This document shows positions 5,018 through 26,357 of a DNA stretch of 30,855 nucleotides, one piece after another. Numbering within the stretch: the stretch's first letter is position 1; every line of letters begins with the position of its first letter. The notes under the pieces are model-generated. The model searched no databases, was not told the origin of the DNA, and saw only the letters and a program-made list of their open reading frames with translations. The position numbers and the translations under genes are program-made. Source of the DNA: Candidatus Roizmanbacteria bacterium (lineage in GTDB: Bacteria; Patescibacteriota; Microgenomatia; UBA1406; GWC2-37-13); NCBI GenBank assembly GCA_024653985.1, contig JANLIS010000055.1:1-30855 (forward strand), given 5' to 3'.

Positions 5018-6508
5018 ATGAGTTTATCATCGCTGATAAAATATTTTCCTGACGAAAGAAAATTAACAACCTCACCTCGTCCCTACATTAATCATTCAGT
5101 TGAGTTTAAAAAAAGCTATTCTTCAGTTGAACGGGCTAAAATGCTGGAAAAAGTCGGCTTAAATGTTTTCTTTTTTCCGGCTGAGATGATAACCGGTTGT
5201 GATTTTTTATCCGATTCAGGGACAACCACAATGACCAACAAGCAATGGGCGAATCTCCACTTGGGAGATGAGTCTTATGGCTCAAACCGTGGTTATTTTC
5301 AGTTAATTAAAGTCATTAGAGAAACTTTCGGCGAAGAATTTTTTAACAGTCCGGAACTAGGAAAGCCAAATGCTTTTCTTTTTCATCAGGGCCGACCCTG
5401 CGAGGATGCTTTATTTACTGCGCTTGGCAGACTCGGAGGCGGTCAAATAATTCCCAGTAACGGCCACTTTGATACGACAGCCGCCAACATCGAGATTAAC
5501 AAAATAAAGGCGGTCAATCTTTTTTCTAAAGAATTGACTGACGAAAAAAGTACCTCGTATTTCAAAGGAAACATGGACACGGCAAAACTTAAGAAATTAT
5601 TAGAATCAGATCATCAAAAAATCCCATTGGTCTATATGACAATCACCAACAATACTGGCGGCGGCCAACCAGCCTCTCTATCAAACATCAGAGAAGTCGC
5701 TGGAATTGTCCACAGCTTCCATCTGCCGTTTTTTATTGATGCCTGCCGTTTTGCCGAAAATGCCTGGTTTATAAAAACTTATGAAAAAGAATATAAAAAT
5801 AAATCTATCCCGGAAATTGTCAGAAAAATATTCAGTTATTGTGATGGTATAACTATCAGTTTTAAAAAAGACGGGTTGGTTAATATGGGCGGAGGCCTTT
5901 TTATTAAAAATGATGGTTTTTTTATGAAAAAATATCCCAGATTGCCGGAAGCGATTTTGGACTATCAAATTGTTAAAGAGGGTCACCCAACTTATGGCGG
6001 AATGTCAGGGCGTGATATTATGGCGCTTGTAGAAGGATTGAAAACAATTGTTAACGAAGATTATTTGACCTATCGTATCATTCAAGTTCAACGGTTTGGC
6101 CAGGCAATGTTGGATAATAATATACCGGTGATAAATCCGATTGGGGGTCATGCCGTGTATTTAGATATCAACAAGTTTTTTAAAGGGACAAAGATGAAAC
6201 CAGAGGATTTTGGTGGAATTTCCTTGACAGCTTTGCTTTTGTCCTTATATGGTCATCGGGCTTGTGAGCTTGGATATTTTGCCTTTGGTTCATATGATAA
6301 AAAAACCGGTATTGAAACTCATCCGGACGTTAATTTTGTCCGGTTTGCCGTTCCCCGTCTGCGCTATGAAGATAAAGATTTATTATCAGCGGTTGAAGCG
6401 GTCAAAGCTCTCCATGATAATCGTGATTTAATTCCAAAAGTTAAAGTAATTTATGGGAGAGACCTAACCCTGCGCCATTTTAAATCCTGGTTTGCATTTG
6501 AAAAATAA
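5018..6508 (+). CDS. Tryptophanase / tyrosine phenol-lyase family PLP enzyme (beta-eliminating lyase)
   Basis: 496 residues, fold-type I PLP enzyme of the TnaA/TPL family, which splits tryptophan or tyrosine into indole or phenol plus pyruvate and ammonia. Visible: LSDSGTTTMTNKQWA, GDESYGSNRGYF (Tyr87), the HQGRPCED loop, TITNNTGGGQPASLSN, Asp241 and Arg244 in DACRFAEN, and the PLP lysine in SFKKDGLVNMGG (most likely Lys284). Context motifs (NKSIPEIV..FSYCDG, GMSGRDIMALVEGL, NPIGGHAVYLD) look somewhat more TPL-like. However, the site where TPL has its substrate Arg (MERG) reads CELG here, closer to tryptophanase VEIG. Substrate is therefore undecided. No TnaC-like leader peptide is possible in the 43-nt gap to tyrS. 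Confidence 0.85.
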   Translation: MSLSSLIKYFPDERKLTTSPRPYINHSVEFKKSYSSVERAKMLEKVGLNVFFFPAEMITGCDFLSDSGTTTMTNKQWANLHLGDESYGSNRGYFQLIKVIRETFGEEFFNSPELGKPNAFLFHQGRPCEDALFTALGRLGGGQIIPSNGHFDTTAANIEINKIKAVNLFSKELTDEKSTSYFKGNMDTAKLKKLLESDHQKIPLVYMTITNNTGGGQPASLSNIREVAGIVHSFHLPFFIDACRFAENAWFIKTYEKEYKNKSIPEIVRKIFSYCDGITISFKKDGLVNMGGGLFIKNDGFFMKKYPRLPEAILDYQIVKEGHPTYGGMSGRDIMALVEGLKTIVNEDYLTYRIIQVQRFGQAMLDNNIPVINPIGGHAVYLDINKFFKGTKMKPEDFGGISLTALLLSLYGHRACELGYFAFGSYDKKTGIETHPDVNFVRFAVPRLRYEDKDLLSAVEAVKALHDNRDLIPKVKVIYGRDLTLRHFKSWFAFEK

Positions 6509-8165: not shown

Positions 8166-8840
8166 TTAATAATTATGTTCGACTAAGGCAACTCCTTTTT
8201 TTACTGATATCTTTATTTGTGTTTGTTTCATGACGTTGCTGATCCCTCTTGTTGTTCCGAATAAAAATGTATCATCGATTAATCGATAATACAGTCCATT
8301 AGTTGTGATGCCTTCTAATTTCTCACTGACGGGAATAATTGAGATTTCGTCGCCAACTTTGCCATTGATGCTTATCTCTTTATTTAAAATAAATATTTCT
8401 TTTTTTCCTTCAAAAATTTTTATTTTTATCCGCCGGCTGGCGGATTGATTTTGAGTTTGGATTTTCGCAATCAAAAATATATTTGCGATCATGTGGTCGA
8501 TTCGGTCGCCTAAAATACCAAAAATAATTATTTCGGTAAATTTTTTTCCCAAACAATAATTAATTACCAATTCGAAATCGGTCGCATTTTTTTTGGTTGG
8601 ATATTTGATCATCGTAGGGAACAAAGATTTTTGTTCCCTACAAATTTTGGTCAATTTTTTTAATAATAATGAAGAAATGGAATCGAAATCACCAACAATT
8701 ACGTTTGGGATCAACCCTAATTCAAGAATATGTTTGGTGCCTCCATCAACCGCAATCAAATAATCTTTTTTTTTAATAATTTTTTTTGCTTGACTTATGT
8801 CAGACAAGTTTCCATTGACAAAAATAATTGCTCTTTTCAT
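8166..8840 (-). CDS. Thiamine pyrophosphokinase
   Basis: 224 residues; transfers pyrophosphate from ATP to thiamine to make TPP. Motifs: YLIAVDGGTKHILELGLIPN, VGDFDS, the KNATDFELVINY acidic motif, and FGILGDRIDHMIANIFL (the G-R-x-DH-x-x-N motif), then a C-terminal beta domain (SIIPVSEKLEGITTNGLYY). Two segments look like palindromic-element insertions: ~REQKSLFPTM (8614-8641) and ~QSASRR (8428-8445). It is divergent from the TPP-riboswitch operon, so vitamin uptake and activation genes are back to back. The likely -10 (TAAAAT) lies 9 nt before the ATG. Confidence 0.9.
   Translation of the reverse strand: MKRAIIFVNGNLSDISQAKKIIKKKDYLIAVDGGTKHILELGLIPNVIVGDFDSISSLLLKKLTKICREQKSLFPTMIKYPTKKNATDFELVINYCLGKKFTEIIIFGILGDRIDHMIANIFLIAKIQTQNQSASRRIKIKIFEGKKEIFILNKEISINGKVGDEISIIPVSEKLEGITTNGLYYRLIDDTFLFGTTRGISNVMKQTQIKISVKKGVALVEHNY
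8428..8445. repeat. Short palindrome in the thiamine pyrophosphokinase gene
   Basis: ATCCGCC-GGCT-GGCGGAT, 7-bp arms, in frame (residues ~132-138, reading SASRR). It is G/C-rich and related in its TCCGCC/GGCGGA ends to the elements in leuS and in the riboswitch. Confidence 0.6.
8614..8641. repeat. GTAGGGAACAAA inverted repeat in the thiamine pyrophosphokinase gene
   Basis: Perfect 12-bp inverted repeat GTAGGGAACAAA / TTTGTTCCCTAC with a 4-nt loop, translated in frame as part of REQKSLFPTM, between the DFDS and ATDFE motifs where family members vary in length. Confidence 0.7.
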
Positions 8841-12906: not shown

Positions 12907-12994
12907 TAATTAACCTAAATAAACCTCAATTTCCTAATTGGTTATTGGGTATTATTTAGATCAATTAGAATAATTAGATTAATTAGGTTAATTA
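12907..12994. repeat. 9-bp iterons and a 12-bp inverted repeat between nadE and the NadM fusion
   Basis: AATTAGAAT, AATTAGATT and AATTAGGTT follow each other without gaps (12963-12989) and run into the start codon; AATTGACCT and AATTAACCT lie in the opposite sense on the left. TAATTAACCTAA (12907-12918) and TTAGGTTAATTA (12983-12994) are exact complements; the last A is the first base of the ATG. Confidence 0.6.
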
Positions 12995-14481
12995 TGAAAC
13001 ATAAAACCGCTCTGGTCATTGGTCGTTTTCAACCTTTTCACAAAGGCCATCTTTTTTTAATAAAAAAAGCTTTAGAAAAAGCAAATAAGATCATTATTGG
13101 GATAGGTAGTGCCAATATTATTGATGAAAATAATCCGATTGATTTTGAAACAAGAAAAAAGGTTATCAAGGCAGTTTTTTATAAAGAAGGAATAGAAGAT
13201 AAATTGATCAAAATTGTCCCTCTTTCCGACTATTTTGATGATAAAAAATGGTTATTGAACTTAGTAAAACAAGTCGGAAAATTTGATCTGACCTTGGGTC
13301 ACAACGAATGGACAAATAATATCTTAAAGAAAGCGGGTTATAAGGTATTAAAGGTAGATTATTATAAAAGACCATTATATGAGGGATGGAGGATCAGAAA
13401 ACTTATAAAAGAGGGAAAGAAATGGCAAGATAGAGTCCCAAAATACATTGTTTCTTGGCTTTATGATTTTGTTTCAAAAAAAGATAAAGATATAAGGAAA
13501 TTTGATCATGTTGTATTGGGTGGTACTTTTGATCACTTTCATAAAGGTCATGAGGCATTATTGACAAAAGCTTTTGAAATAGGAAGAAAAGTTACCATAG
13601 GAATCGCCACAGAAGAGATCTATAAAAATAAATTTTTGTCAGAGACTATTCAATCATTTGAGTTAAGAAAAAGATCAGTTGAAAAATATGTAAAAAACGG
13701 AAACTATATTCCCTTTTCTGAGTTTACTGGCGGAACCGACAGTATGAGAAATATTAATGCGATAGTTGTTTCAAGGGAAACCTATCCAAATGCCATGAGG
13801 ATAAATGAGTTAAGAGTAAAAAATAAATTACAGCCATTGATGATAGTTATAATTGAAGACATTTTAGCAGAGGACGGAAAACTTATCAGTTCTGAAAGAA
13901 TTAGGTCGGGAGAAATTGACAGGGAAGGAAAAAAATATCAAATATCAAAGATTAAAGATCAAAAAGAAATAGTTATGCCTGAAAGTCTACGTCCAATATT
14001 ACAGAAGCCACTAGGCAAAATTTTTAAGGATATAAAATCCTTACTTCATTATATTAATATAATGAAGTGGACGATGATAATCGCCGTTGGGGACATAATC
14101 GTTGATTCGTTGTTGAAAGAAGGAATTGATCCTAATCTGAAAGTGATAGATTTTAAATCTCGTCGAACTGTCATTCCCGCGAAGGCGGGAATCCATACAA
14201 ATATACCTATTTTTAAGCAAAAAATGACAAATAATCCCGGAACGATCAATCTTAAAACTGCCGATACCATTAAAATAAAGATAAGTGAGGCTTTACACAA
14301 AAAATCAAAATCATGGGTCATTGTGGACGGTGAAGAAGATCTTCTAACTTTACCGGCGATATTATTTGTGCCCTTAAATTCATTGGTGTTGTACGGACAC
14401 TGGCAGTATGGAATTATCGTAGTAACGATTGATGAAAAGATAAAGGAGAAAGTGGGAAAAATTTTAAAGGAGTTCATTTAA
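12994..14481 (+). CDS. Trifunctional fusion: NadM adenylyltransferase - archaeal-type phosphopantetheine adenylyltransferase - GTP-dependent dephospho-CoA kinase
   Basis: 495 residues with three domains. Residues 1-~165 are an archaeal-like NadM: GRFQPFHKGH at 10-19 and a late GWRIRKLIKEG (the ISSTxIR-like helix). Residues ~170-325 are an archaeal-type phosphopantetheine adenylyltransferase: GGTFDHFHKGH at 176-186 and SSERIRSGEID near 299. Residues ~328-495 match the archaeal GTP-dependent dephospho-CoA kinase (DUF359): LRPILQKPLGKIF, AVGDIIVDSLLKEGIDPNLK, VIDFKSRR, VDGEEDLLTLPA and VLYGHWQYGIIVV. The protein should join NMN/NaMN adenylation with the last two steps of CoA synthesis. Residues ~392-411 are a palindromic insertion, and the linker has an 'ISKIKDQK' repeat-like run. 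Divergent nadE supports the NAD role. Confidence 0.88.
   Translation: MKHKTALVIGRFQPFHKGHLFLIKKALEKANKIIIGIGSANIIDENNPIDFETRKKVIKAVFYKEGIEDKLIKIVPLSDYFDDKKWLLNLVKQVGKFDLTLGHNEWTNNILKKAGYKVLKVDYYKRPLYEGWRIRKLIKEGKKWQDRVPKYIVSWLYDFVSKKDKDIRKFDHVVLGGTFDHFHKGHEALLTKAFEIGRKVTIGIATEEIYKNKFLSETIQSFELRKRSVEKYVKNGNYIPFSEFTGGTDSMRNINAIVVSRETYPNAMRINELRVKNKLQPLMIVIIEDILAEDGKLISSERIRSGEIDREGKKYQISKIKDQKEIVMPESLRPILQKPLGKIFKDIKSLLHYINIMKWTMIIAVGDIIVDSLLKEGIDPNLKVIDFKSRRTVIPAKAGIHTNIPIFKQKMTNNPGTINLKTADTIKIKISEALHKKSKSWVIVDGEEDLLTLPAILFVPLNSLVLYGHWQYGIIVVTIDEKIKEKVGKILKEFI
14169..14229. repeat. GTCAT-type palindromic element in the dephospho-CoA kinase domain
   Basis: TGTCATTCCCGCGAAGGCGG with GAATCCA, an eroded second half, and a closing ATGACA: 61 bp, the same length as the intact copy at 3756-3816. 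It is read in frame as a TVIPAKAGIH-type peptide between the IDFKSRR and NNPGTI motifs. Confidence 0.8.
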
Positions 14482-23342: not shown

Positions 23343-23430
23343 GAATGAAATAATATGATATTGCAGCATATATTGACCAAACAATGGCTTTCTAATGGTC
23401 TAATAACGTTGTTTTGTAGATTATAAGCGG

Positions 23431-23459
23431 TTGACAATTTTTTTTGATCGAGCTATAAG
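23431..23459 (+). promoter_or_regulatory. Near-consensus promoter of the TrpR-like gene
   Basis: TTGACA (23431-23436), 17-nt spacer, TATAAG (23454-23459); 11 of 12 consensus bases. The predicted start is near 23466, giving a ~49-nt leader that contains the operator sites. Confidence 0.8.
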
Positions 23460-23467
23460 AATTTTTA

Positions 23468-23483
23468 AGTTAACAAAGTTACT
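23468..23483. promoter_or_regulatory. Two operator-like half-sites at the TrpR-like promoter
   Basis: AGTTAAC (23468-23474) and AGTTACT (23477-23483), just past the predicted start point and imperfect copies of the perfect site at 23491. Confidence 0.45.
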
Positions 23484-23490
23484 CTGTTAT

Positions 23491-23508
23491 CAGTTAACTA
23501 GTTAACTG
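23491..23508. promoter_or_regulatory. 18-bp perfect palindrome, putative TrpR-like operator
   Basis: CAGTTAACTAGTTAACTG reads the same on both strands. It lies ~25-42 nt after the predicted start, 6 nt before the ATG. It contains AACTAGTTAACT, which also occurs in the E. coli trp operator. Confidence 0.7.
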
Positions 23509-23514
23509 TAGATT

Positions 23515-23958
23515 ATGGTAAATATTTCCAAAAGGCCAGTCGATGAGAAGAAACTGTTTAAGATTTATCAGTTGTTCTTCAAAGTAATTGATCAAGCAGA
23601 TAATAAAGAAGAATTTTTTCAATTAATTCAGGATATTTTTTCCCCAAGCGAACAAATAATGATCGCCAAAAGAATTGGAGTAATATACCTTTTAATAAAA
23701 AACGTTAATAAACTCGCTATTACAAAATATCTAAAAGTATCAATGGCGACGGTCGATAAATATTATTTTTTATATTATAAAAAGAAAACGAATCTGATCC
23801 TGATTATTGAATCATTTTTGGAAGACGAAAAAATTAATCATTTTTTCGAAGACCTGTTTGCCGATATATTTATTCATCCAGGAATTTACATTGGACACCA
23901 TCAACTAAATTGGGAACACAAAAAAAGGCAGAAAGAGCGTCTTATGATTGATGTTTAG
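23515..23958 (+). CDS. TrpR-superfamily (YerC-like) DNA-binding regulator with extended C terminus
   Basis: 147 residues. The TrpR fold is visible at ~residues 25-90: EEFFQLIQDIFSPSEQIMIAKR (the helices before the reader), then LLIKNVNKLAITKYLKVSMATVDKYY as helix-turn-helix, corresponding to the 'SxREIAxxLGVSxATIxR' pattern of YerC/TrpR proteins. A C-terminal ~50 residues (IIESFLEDEKINHFFEDLFADIFIHPGIYIGHHQLNWEH, broken here only for naming) goes beyond the usual ~100-residue size. The ligand is unknown. Perfect AGTTAACTAGTTAACT palindromes flank the gene, suggesting autoregulation; a half-site in the otsA leader suggests the next operon is a target. Confidence 0.78.
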   Translation: MVNISKRPVDEKKLFKIYQLFFKVIDQADNKEEFFQLIQDIFSPSEQIMIAKRIGVIYLLIKNVNKLAITKYLKVSMATVDKYYFLYYKKKTNLILIIESFLEDEKINHFFEDLFADIFIHPGIYIGHHQLNWEHKKRQKERLMIDV

Positions 23959-23972
23959 TTAACTAGTTAACT
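23957..23972. promoter_or_regulatory. Second perfect AGTTAACTAGTTAACT palindrome
   Basis: Identical 16-bp core to 23492-23507. It overlaps the stop codon end of the TrpR-like gene and lies ~95 nt before the otsA -10 box. Confidence 0.65.
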
Positions 23973-24044
23973 GATATGTCAAGTTGTTAGATTAAGAAAT
24001 AAATAACTTATAACGTTAATGGTAATTACAAGAGAGAGTTTTTA

Positions 24045-24072
24045 TTGAAGTAATATCCAAATTTGGTATAAT
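24045..24072 (+). promoter_or_regulatory. Promoter of the sensor-otsA / otsB operon
   Basis: TTGAAG, 16 nt, TATAAT, with an extended TGG just before the -10. The predicted start is near 24079, which leaves a ~62-nt leader, unlike most genes here. Confidence 0.65.
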
Positions 24073-24117
24073 AGCCCATACACATGTTGAATACAAAGTT
24101 TTGTTGACAAAACAATT

Positions 24118-24125
24118 AGTTAACT
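24118..24125. promoter_or_regulatory. AGTTAACT half-site in the otsA leader
   Basis: A single AGTTAACT, the same half-site as in the palindromes around the TrpR-like gene, 15 nt before the otsA ATG. Confidence 0.45.
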
Positions 24126-24140
24126 CTTCATCTCGAATTT

Positions 24141-26357
24141 ATGAAACAAACAATAATAACAATTCTTGCGTTTTTAATTATCGTTACCTTAGTTGTTCTT
24201 TTTTTTACTTTAAATCAATCTAGTCGAGAAGAGCAACGTTTAACAACAGATCTACAATATAGAACAACTTTACTGGCAGATAGTCTTAAAGAAAAAATCA
24301 ACCCTTATGTAATCTATAATAATAAAGAACAAATTCAGGTAATAATAGATCAGTTTACCGAAGATAAAAGAGTCACGACCGTAGTTTTATATGACAACAA
24401 AGACAATATCGTTGCTTCATCTTCAGCAGTAAATTTGGATATTACCAACATAGACACCATAGTTACAAACTCTATGGATGAAGATAAAGTAAGCGCAGAC
24501 TTTATTAAGCTTGATGGTAAAAAATCATATGTTTTTTCGTTGCCCCTTCATAAAGATACTAACATTATAGGATCATTGACGTTAATTCAAAATGCTGGAT
24601 TTATTGATGATAGACTATCAGAGGTTTGGAAAAATAATTTGATTCGTTTAGGAGTTCAAGCGACTATAATATTTTTAGCAATTCTTTTGACGGTTCGTTT
24701 CATTATTTATCTTCCTATTAAAGACCTTGTTGAAACAATCAGACGTTCACGAATGCATGAAGAAAATACTCCTCCAAAAAAAATTCCCGAAAACTTTATT
24801 TTTAGACCACTTATCAAAGAAATTTCACATTTTAGTAAAAATTTATACGAAGCGCGAATGTCAGCAAAAGAAGAAGCAAAATTTAATATTGAGAAAATAG
24901 ATTCTCCTTGGACCGAACAAAGACTTTACGAATACGTGAAAAAAATTTTAAATAATAGAAATGTTTTTGTTATCTCAAATCGAGAACCATATATTCATAC
25001 AAAAAAATCCGGAAAAATCAGTTATTTTATACCAGCTAGTGGAATGGTGACCGCTATTGAGCCGATGATTGAAGCCTGTGGGGGGACTTGGATTGCCACC
25101 GGTAGTGGAGATGCTGATAGATTGGTAGTAGACAAAAATAATAAAATAAAAGTTCCACCAGATGATCCAAAATATGTCTTAAAAAGAGTCTGGTTGACAA
25201 AAGAGGAAGAAAAAAGATACTATTACGGATTTTCAAATGAAGGTTTATGGCCTCTCTGCCATATGGCCCATACGAGACCGATATTTAGGGAAGAAGATTG
25301 GGAAGTGTACAAGTCAGTTAATGGTAAATTTGCTTCAATTGTTTTGAATGAAATAAAGAATATTGAAAAACCGGTGATTATTATCCAGGATTACCATTTT
25401 TCTTTATTGCCAAGAATGATAAAAGATAGTCGTCCTGATGCTCAAATAGGTATTTTTTGGCATATTCCGTGGCCGAATCCGGAAGCTTTTGGAATTTGTC
25501 CATTTAGAAAAGAGATATTAGATGGTATGCTTGGAGCTGATCTCATCGGTTTTCATACACAACTACATTGTAATAACTTTATAGAAACTGCCGGACGAGA
25601 ACTGGAAGCTTTGATTGACCTTGAACAGTTTACCATAACTAAAAATACTCACAAAAGTTATATAAAACCATTTCCAATTAGTATTGCTTTTTCGGATAAT
25701 AAAGATAAAAAAACTAATCCGGAAGAAATATTAAGAAAGCTCGATATTAAAAAAACAAAATATATGGGAATAGGAGTAGACAGACTTGATTATACGAAAG
25801 GCATATTAGAGCGGTTGATAGCGATTGAACAATTATTCAAAAATAATCCAACCTATAAAAATAATTTTACCTTTGTACAAGTTGCTCCACCAAGCCGTAG
25901 TCAAATTACCGTTTACTCTAATCTTGAAAGTCAAGTGGAGGCAGAAGTCAATAGAATCAATAGTCTTTACAAATCAAATGGCTGGAAGCCGATAATATAT
26001 CTAAACAAACATCACAATCACGAAGAAATTAATGAACTATATCGTGTATCCAACGTCTGTTTGGTGACTTCGCTACACGATGGTATGAATTTAGTTTCAA
26101 AAGAGTTCGTCGTAGCCCGAACGGATGAAAAAGGAGTACTTATACTTAGTAAATTTGCAGGAGCTTCAAGGGAGCTAAAAGACGCGATTATAATAAATCC
26201 ATATGATATTAATCAGCTGTCAGAAAGCATTCACAAAGCATTGCAAATGAGCAATCTAGAACAAACAAAAAGAATGAAAAGAATGAGAGATGCACTAAAA
26301 AGAAACGATATCTACCATTGGTCAGCAAGTTTATTAAAAAATCTTATTAATCTTTGA
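24141..26357 (+). CDS. otsA: Membrane sensor - trehalose-6-phosphate synthase (GT20) fusion
   Basis: 738 residues. TM1 (~4-24), an extracytoplasmic domain of ~140 residues resembling a Cache/PAS-type sensor (VVLYDNKDNIVASSSA ... SYVFSLPLHKDTNIIGSLTL), TM2 (~167-191), a HAMP-like or linker helix region (~192-255), then a GT20 synthase from ~273 to the end. GT20 motifs: VISNREPYIH, GGTWIATGSGDAD, YYGFSNEGLWPLCH, IIQDYHFSLLP, FWHIPWPNPEAFGICP, GVDRLDYTKGI, HDGMNLVSKEFV. The expected product is trehalose-6-phosphate from UDP-glucose and glucose-6-phosphate; glucosylglycerol-phosphate synthases are close relatives. otsB follows with a 1-nt overlap. Confidence 0.87.
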   Translation: MKQTIITILAFLIIVTLVVLFFTLNQSSREEQRLTTDLQYRTTLLADSLKEKINPYVIYNNKEQIQVIIDQFTEDKRVTTVVLYDNKDNIVASSSAVNLDITNIDTIVTNSMDEDKVSADFIKLDGKKSYVFSLPLHKDTNIIGSLTLIQNAGFIDDRLSEVWKNNLIRLGVQATIIFLAILLTVRFIIYLPIKDLVETIRRSRMHEENTPPKKIPENFIFRPLIKEISHFSKNLYEARMSAKEEAKFNIEKIDSPWTEQRLYEYVKKILNNRNVFVISNREPYIHTKKSGKISYFIPASGMVTAIEPMIEACGGTWIATGSGDADRLVVDKNNKIKVPPDDPKYVLKRVWLTKEEEKRYYYGFSNEGLWPLCHMAHTRPIFREEDWEVYKSVNGKFASIVLNEIKNIEKPVIIIQDYHFSLLPRMIKDSRPDAQIGIFWHIPWPNPEAFGICPFRKEILDGMLGADLIGFHTQLHCNNFIETAGRELEALIDLEQFTITKNTHKSYIKPFPISIAFSDNKDKKTNPEEILRKLDIKKTKYMGIGVDRLDYTKGILERLIAIEQLFKNNPTYKNNFTFVQVAPPSRSQITVYSNLESQVEAEVNRINSLYKSNGWKPIIYLNKHHNHEEINELYRVSNVCLVTSLHDGMNLVSKEFVVARTDEKGVLILSKFAGASRELKDAIIINPYDINQLSESIHKALQMSNLEQTKRMKRMRDALKRNDIYHWSASLLKNLINL

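Follow-up and report, generated by a model that had tools for sequence, protein, structure and literature searches.

The window analysed here, that is, the whole stretch of 30,855 nucleotides from a Candidatus Roizmanbacteria genome, contains on its forward strand, at 23515-23958, the gene of a putative DNA-binding protein of TrpR fold with 147 residues. This gene is preceded by a promoter assigned by eye (TTTTGTAGATTATAAGCG, 23412-23459, forward strand, with TTGACA at 23431-23436 and, after 17 bp, TATAAG at 23454-23459) and followed by otsA (24141-26357). Its leader holds a presumed operator cluster (23468-23507, with five GTTA words), made up of a weak site (AGTTAACAAAGTTACT, 23468-23483) and the perfect 16-bp palindrome AGTTAACTAGTTAACT (23492-23507). 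A second exact copy of this palindrome (23957-23972) overlaps the stop codon, and a single octamer, AGTTAACT, lies at 24118-24125, 15 bp before the otsA start.

The initial annotation had described the perfect palindrome at both ends of the gene, and this was borne out: both copies were free of mismatches, whereas base composition led us to expect about 4e-5 exact copies per window. No third match was present in the window at up to three mismatches (shuffles expect 0.18 at 3 mismatches). The genome-wide search for the 16-bp palindrome that had also been proposed was carried out on the assembly of this genome (G000; 817 kb, 127 contigs, 86% complete) and gave three exact copies and none with one or two mismatches. 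Two of them were those at the gene; the third was located on contig C126 (1336-1351), between the next gene and one that we take, from its sequence, to be alaS (proS and hisS, mentioned below, were named in the same way). Loose matches to the motif are by themselves meaningless, since the motif read backwards, used as a control, was found at 11 places in the genome at two mismatches or fewer. As to the further half-sites that had been listed, the one at 23468-23483 is weak, 4 of its 16 bases deviating from those of the full site, but the octamer at 24118-24125 has no mismatch. From base composition, 1.1 such octamers would be expected per window, yet only 3 were found in 174 kb of other stretches of the genome, two of them inside the C126 palindrome; because of this rarity, the octamer may be a genuine half-site.

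The palindromes start directly after the expected transcription start (about 2-41 bp after it, by eye), and a site just after the transcription start is in a classical position for a repressor. This location in the 5' leader of their own gene is what the autoregulated repressor of the initial annotation requires, though the autoregulation itself we infer. The word TTGTAGGTTATAA was found upstream of 40 of the 106 family genes described below (at most two mismatches). Among its occurrences with at most one mismatch, 8/14 in stretches of the own genome and 8/13 in those of G027 were not upstream of a family gene, so that we regard it as an apparent promoter of the genus rather than one private to the family. 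We also observed TTTTGTAGGTTATAARCGRTTGACA before other genes of the genus in both sets of stretches; it may represent a strong promoter common to these genes, or else contain a site for some further regulator.

The 147-residue protein exceeded the cut-off of the Pfam family Trp_repressor (PF01371, 36 bits versus 27), but failed those of the TrpR equivalog (TIGR01321, 17.8 bits versus 67.25) and of YerC/YecD, HisR (TIGR02531, 18.4 bits versus 42.2). The structural model was all-helical, with a TrpR-type helical core (about residues 5-105) followed by two C-terminal helices; together with the Pfam score, it agreed with the earlier assignment to the TrpR superfamily of helix-turn-helix proteins. 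Arginine R53, which we take to be the counterpart of the Trp-binding Arg54 of TrpR, was invariant in all 104 rows of the alignment. No transposase, nuclease or recombinase domain was detected, as Pfam at E 0.1 gave Trp_repressor alone, and a PHROG search with three family proteins returned no match. A nuclease or transposase in the C-terminal part was tentatively rejected, nothing of the kind being seen in Pfam or PHROGs, with a structural comparison that in practice covered the residues before 105. When the covariation of protein columns with half-site bases was analysed, the signal was not clearly centred on the recognition helix: 4 of the 20 top pairs fell in residues 76-84, where 1.2 were expected, with the best pairs elsewhere and kinship as a confounding factor. 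From one alignment of 78 rows, 6 were dropped.

Relation to otsA

The initial annotation had proposed a trp-operator-type repressor controlling the trehalose operon otsA-otsB in response to a small molecule. The protein is indeed of the TrpR family, and the downstream palindrome and the octamer lie between its gene and otsA. However, the association proved not to be conserved. Among the 72 family genomes, a full-length match to otsA was found in the own genome and in G020 only, and any otsA match at E 1e-30 in 17. G020 had no family match at E 1e-8, and no palindrome was visible in the 700 bp before its otsA. In G045, otsA was about 70 kb away from the nearest of three family genes, and L047 and L048, the relatives closest to the window gene, had neighbours other than otsA. 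As a palindrome behind the gene is, furthermore, a trait of the family whichever gene follows, trehalose control was rejected as a general purpose, and we consider the original reading quite improbable. A local effect on otsA through the half-site at 24118-24125 may exist. Across the family, a downstream neighbour ORF (at least 100 aa, within 400 bp) was present for 86 genes, 46 of these ORFs being co-directional and 40 opposed, and this orientation indicates no common target gene.

The otsA gene has an N-terminal sensor-like part (sCache_3_2, 24.6 bits, under the cut-off of 28.4), and its orthologue in G020 was matched over the same full length with 76% identity. Elsewhere in the window, a gene of the Tryptophanase / tyrosine phenol-lyase family (5018-6508; NF009709, 475 bits versus 285) is found near aromatic amino-acid genes.

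Paired palindromes in the TrpR-like family

Seven Trp_repressor genes (PF01371) were found in the own genome, five of which form one group encoding proteins of 127-147 aa. The four paralogues of the window gene (127-146 aa) are each surrounded by a different pair of palindromes. The pair in the window, real as it is, is thus one instance of something more widespread; the pairs around the paralogues had escaped the initial annotation. A profile of the five genes had matches in 30 of the 72 family genomes at E 1e-8, with up to seven per genome, and none in the other 42. Searched against public genome records, it identified 86 loci, of which 80 were retained, and these include Roizmanbacteria, Gottesmanbacteria, Levybacteria, Daviesbacteria and Curtissbacteria. 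A wider profile was matched at E 1e-15 by 35 genomes in a sample of 286 from the phylum. The resulting comparison set consisted of 106 distinct family genes, whose proteins mostly have 145-150 aa, with two additional helices. One of the paralogues, at C38:5.6 kb (L012:5558-5941, minus strand), has two in-frame TGA codons in its 5' part and may be decaying with its palindromes kept. A partial relative, L102, comes from a record labelled Heimdallarchaeota, perhaps through a binning error.

To compare the two sides of each gene, the flank before it was aligned with the flank after it, with a shared-word alignment score of at least 15 as the cut-off; 3 of the 106 loci had insufficient flank and were left out. 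A word common to both flanks was present at 90 of 103 loci, versus 12 of 308 mismatched flank pairs, and 83 of the 90 shared words were palindromic by the cut-off used. The remaining 13 loci had no shared flank word at this score. With a 26-bp palindrome frame, 94 of 106 genes were paired, the figure for mismatched pairs being 48 of 316; since related genes have palindrome classes in common, this comparison carries less weight. Twenty more distant relatives, chosen after the rule had been formed, gave 17 paired genes versus 5 of 380 mismatched pairs, though L357 and L097 are one locus, which leaves 16 of 19 as new; at L347 the shared flank word was non-palindromic. An earlier, less reliable pass on this set had located 10 of the genes, and 8 of these 10 were paired. 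The two YerC-type genes of the own genome (about 95 aa) scored 8 and 13, under 15. A coupled change was also noted, all three sites of L186 sharing the same single-base difference from most sites of L077 and L083. These findings amount to a family-wide rule: one TrpR-like gene goes with one palindrome class, which is present on both sides. We did not find this pattern of paired palindromes around TrpR-like genes in the open-licence literature searched.

We considered a role for the palindromes that has no connection with the protein, as transcription terminators or hairpins of another kind in RNA. The downstream copies are located just past the stop codon, and in distant families there is indeed a short spacer between the palindrome arms. 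Yet the palindromes are often perfect and loop-free, they occur equally before the start, their sequence is tied to the individual gene, and strong ones were absent from the stretches of genomes that lack the gene (see below). Such a role is highly improbable.

Dispersed units and lone palindromes

The 106 family genes fell into 46 context groups, 31 of them single. In a tree of 104 of the proteins (two short ones were left out), in which 49 of 101 inner branches were well supported, the proS slot was occupied by genes from four or five distinct branches, and close sisters were found in differing slots. We aligned 13 gene pairs with 600 bp of flank. For the 8 pairs from clearly different slots, the distance between the end of homology and the outer edge of the palindrome behind the gene was 1-15 bp (within 10 bp for 7 of the 8), and the homology took in no other gene. 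The alignment of the window unit with L047 stopped 1 bp beyond the downstream palindrome. The left end was variable in distance, often near the promoter word TTTTGTAGGTTATAA. In 3 same-slot pairs the alignment extended past the unit on at least one side, and in 2 pairs with unclear slots homology also stopped at the palindrome. The presence of close relatives in different slots, with homology ending near the downstream palindrome, indicates that gene and palindromes moved together.

Lone palindromes were searched for by scanning stretches of six genomes with a profile of the flanking sites. With unit flanks included, the carriers had 18 sites in 205 kb (G000; contigs from earlier steps plus every fourth up to C81), 38 in 315 kb (G027) and 9 in 54 kb (G015), the contigs of the latter two having been chosen for carrying family genes or for synteny with the window. 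The non-carriers (no match at E 1e-8), represented by large contigs with a G+C of 0.28-0.42 versus 0.32-0.34 in carriers, had 1 in 180 kb, 3 in 140 kb and 0 in 80 kb. Shuffle controls gave 0-1 sites per run, except for G027 with 4, 0 and 4. At a score of at least 20, 22 lone sites were present in 575 kb of the three carriers versus 0 in 400 kb of G030, G031 and G020; 24 had been listed, and two were excluded as upstream flanks of minus-strand units (L012:15437-15462 and L337:17595-17620). In these sampled genomes, strong lone sites were thus confined to carriers, although the 22 are not independent, since those in thiN and in the gene at 12994-14481 are orthologous in two or three genomes. Chance palindromes were excluded by a control with A-C/G-T pairing (1 hit, not deduplicated, versus 151 deduplicated real ones in 1.01 Mb), as well as by the shuffles and the mismatched flank pairs.

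Three of the 22 strong sites fall in the window. The first (1463-1488) lies in aroC and is nearest to the class of the relative L057 (24/26), the second (8268-8293) in a thiN-like coding sequence, with the class shown by the C38:5.6 kb paralogue of the own genome, and the third (14043-14068) in the coding sequence 12994-14481, where it is identical to a site flanking L089. A weaker one (score 14.7), like the flanks of the relatives L063 and L177, is intergenic (2354-2385). The names aroC and thiN-like were assigned from the sequences themselves, and by comparison with sequences of these families both sites appear to overlie normal codons. For several lone sites, the class had no matching gene found in the same genome. 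Two other kinds of palindrome were observed. GTAG-type palindromes (GTAGGGAACAAA.., GTAGAGAC..GTCTCTAC) occur inside genes (window 8614-8641; L333, L335, L337 and L334), one of them inside the thiN-like gene of G000, G015 and G027; they resemble the GTAG-tagged REPs in the excerpt of PMC3733652 and are seemingly a separate class from the palindromes of the TrpR units. Palindromes around CGATCG, such as TTATCTTATTAACGATCGTTTATAAGATAA, were seen in intergenic DNA of G027 (L319, L322, L325 and L328) and upstream of hisS in G019 (L213), a genome without a family gene at E 1e-8.

At one place in the gene at 12994-14481, the same palindrome is present in G000 and G015, a different one in G027, where it matches that genome's own unit L079, and yet another in G023. 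Of the 13 genomes compared, these 4 have a palindrome and 9 have none; among the latter, 6 have the same protein length as the 4 with a palindrome and 3 a longer one. The occurrence of three palindromes at one place with unchanged length indicates that a site is able to change in place. As no clean insertion of a lone site was observed in this gene (one coding case in many genomes), the simple transposon picture was not adopted. The thiN site was common to three carriers, in a comparison that excludes G033 and G021. The sole gain of a lone site was observed at alaS, where AGTTAACTAGTTAACT sits within 120 bases, versus 6 in G033 and 2 in G027, which alone, of 11 junctions reaching beyond alaS, have the same next gene. 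This one junction includes another repeat, and no target-site duplication was readable by eye. In G026, a lone palindrome in the proS slot shares a 16-bp core with the sites of its unit L181.

These observations bear on two further explanations. In the first, TrpR-like proteins and palindromes would form a selfish pair of the RAYT/REP type, the protein helping to move palindrome-bounded DNA, with units as full and lone palindromes as reduced forms of one mobile element. This would account for the palindrome-flanked gene, the lone copies in the same genomes, the many slots, the right boundary at a palindrome, and the alaS and G026 cases. It accords poorly with the domain results and the all-helical TrpR-type model, the unchanged protein length in 6 of 9 palindrome-free genomes, the thiN site common to three carriers and the non-uniform left end, and we consider it doubtful. 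In the second, the family would organise the chromosome as MatP, Noc or ParB do, with genome-wide sites and a class for each paralogue. A density in carriers of about 4 strong lone sites for every 100 kb, sites in coding sequence and the three palindromes at one place in 4 of 13 genomes, with no change in length, would fit such a role. Yet 42 of 72 family genomes lack a match, others have up to seven paralogues, and site density is higher in non-coding DNA, with 8 in 50 kb compared to 14 in 525 kb of coding DNA (by ORF-based calls), which makes such a role improbable.

Interpretation and comparison with known systems

We regard it as probable that these genes represent a self-regulating, palindrome-specific DNA-binding family of TrpR fold, each member with its own palindrome class, carried in a compact unit that disperses. 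Each protein would bind palindromes of its own class, as a dimer or as tandem dimers, and, bound before the start and just past the stop, would repress its own promoter. Promoter, palindromes and gene would constitute the unit, now in many intergenic slots of Patescibacteria, besides which similar palindromes exist alone. That a protein binds its own class and limits its own expression we infer from the fold, from where the sites lie and from their pairing with the gene. The 20-bp palindromic sites of HisR, of similar layout as far as the excerpt of PMC9413887 describes them, support binding, and CACTTTAATTAATTAAAGTG at L177 matches the layout of the HisR motif cacTTTAnnnnnnTAAAgtg.

It is a tentative possibility that this is a new compact selfish unit, widespread in Patescibacteria, in which a TrpR-fold gene and its palindrome spread both units and lone palindromes without a transposase. 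Such spread might involve, for instance, directed recombination or replacement between palindromes; the classes would diverge, several unit families would coexist in a genome of less than 1 Mb, and units might even rewrite codons in host genes.

The pairing of gene and palindromes replaces a single odd operator by a family-wide rule, which holds in distant Patescibacteria too and is open to testing with no more than one protein and a handful of oligonucleotides. With about 90 natural pairs of protein and site, the family could serve to decipher how the TrpR fold recognises DNA, and it is a candidate source of scattered AT-rich palindromes in the genomes of uncultured Patescibacteria. If the protein also drives dispersal, these units would represent mobile DNA in which no transposase can be recognised.

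According to the excerpt of PMC3733652, RAYT genes can be flanked by a palindrome family scattered through the genome, mostly downstream of genes and with some copies inside them, and RAYT transposases are hypothesised to promote the dispersal of GTAG REPs. The genes described here are likewise flanked by their own palindrome family, with lone palindromes in the same genome (stretches of three carriers). Unlike in RAYT/REP systems, an HUH/Y1 tyrosine transposase domain was not found in the family protein, the listed flanking palindromes are AT-rich and, by eye, free of GTAG or CGTC end tags, and the class differs for each paralogue. Dispersal promoted by the protein, as hypothesised for RAYT, is nonetheless the most interesting possibility. 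The family also resembles mobile-element repressors with autoregulated operators, in combining a small helix-turn-helix protein with palindromes at the promoter of its gene, but three of its proteins had no PHROG match and, in the 8 different-slot pairs, unit homology covers no other gene.

A further comparison concerns operators and fold. The likeness to the trp operator noted in the initial annotation was upheld, the window site sharing the 12 bp AACTAGTTAACT with that operator. This overlap agrees with the published motif TGTAcTnGTnnACnAgTACA in the excerpt of PMC9413887, according to which HisR and TrpR sites are 20-bp palindromes of lineage-specific sequence. Like TrpR and HisR (YerC), the family protein has the PF01371 fold. 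Unlike them, it lies under both NCBIfam cut-offs in the case of the window protein, is mostly longer by its two extra helices (145-150 aa) and shows no consistent association with amino-acid genes; the family has, moreover, several paralogues per small genome, a palindrome on both sides of the gene and dispersed lone sites.
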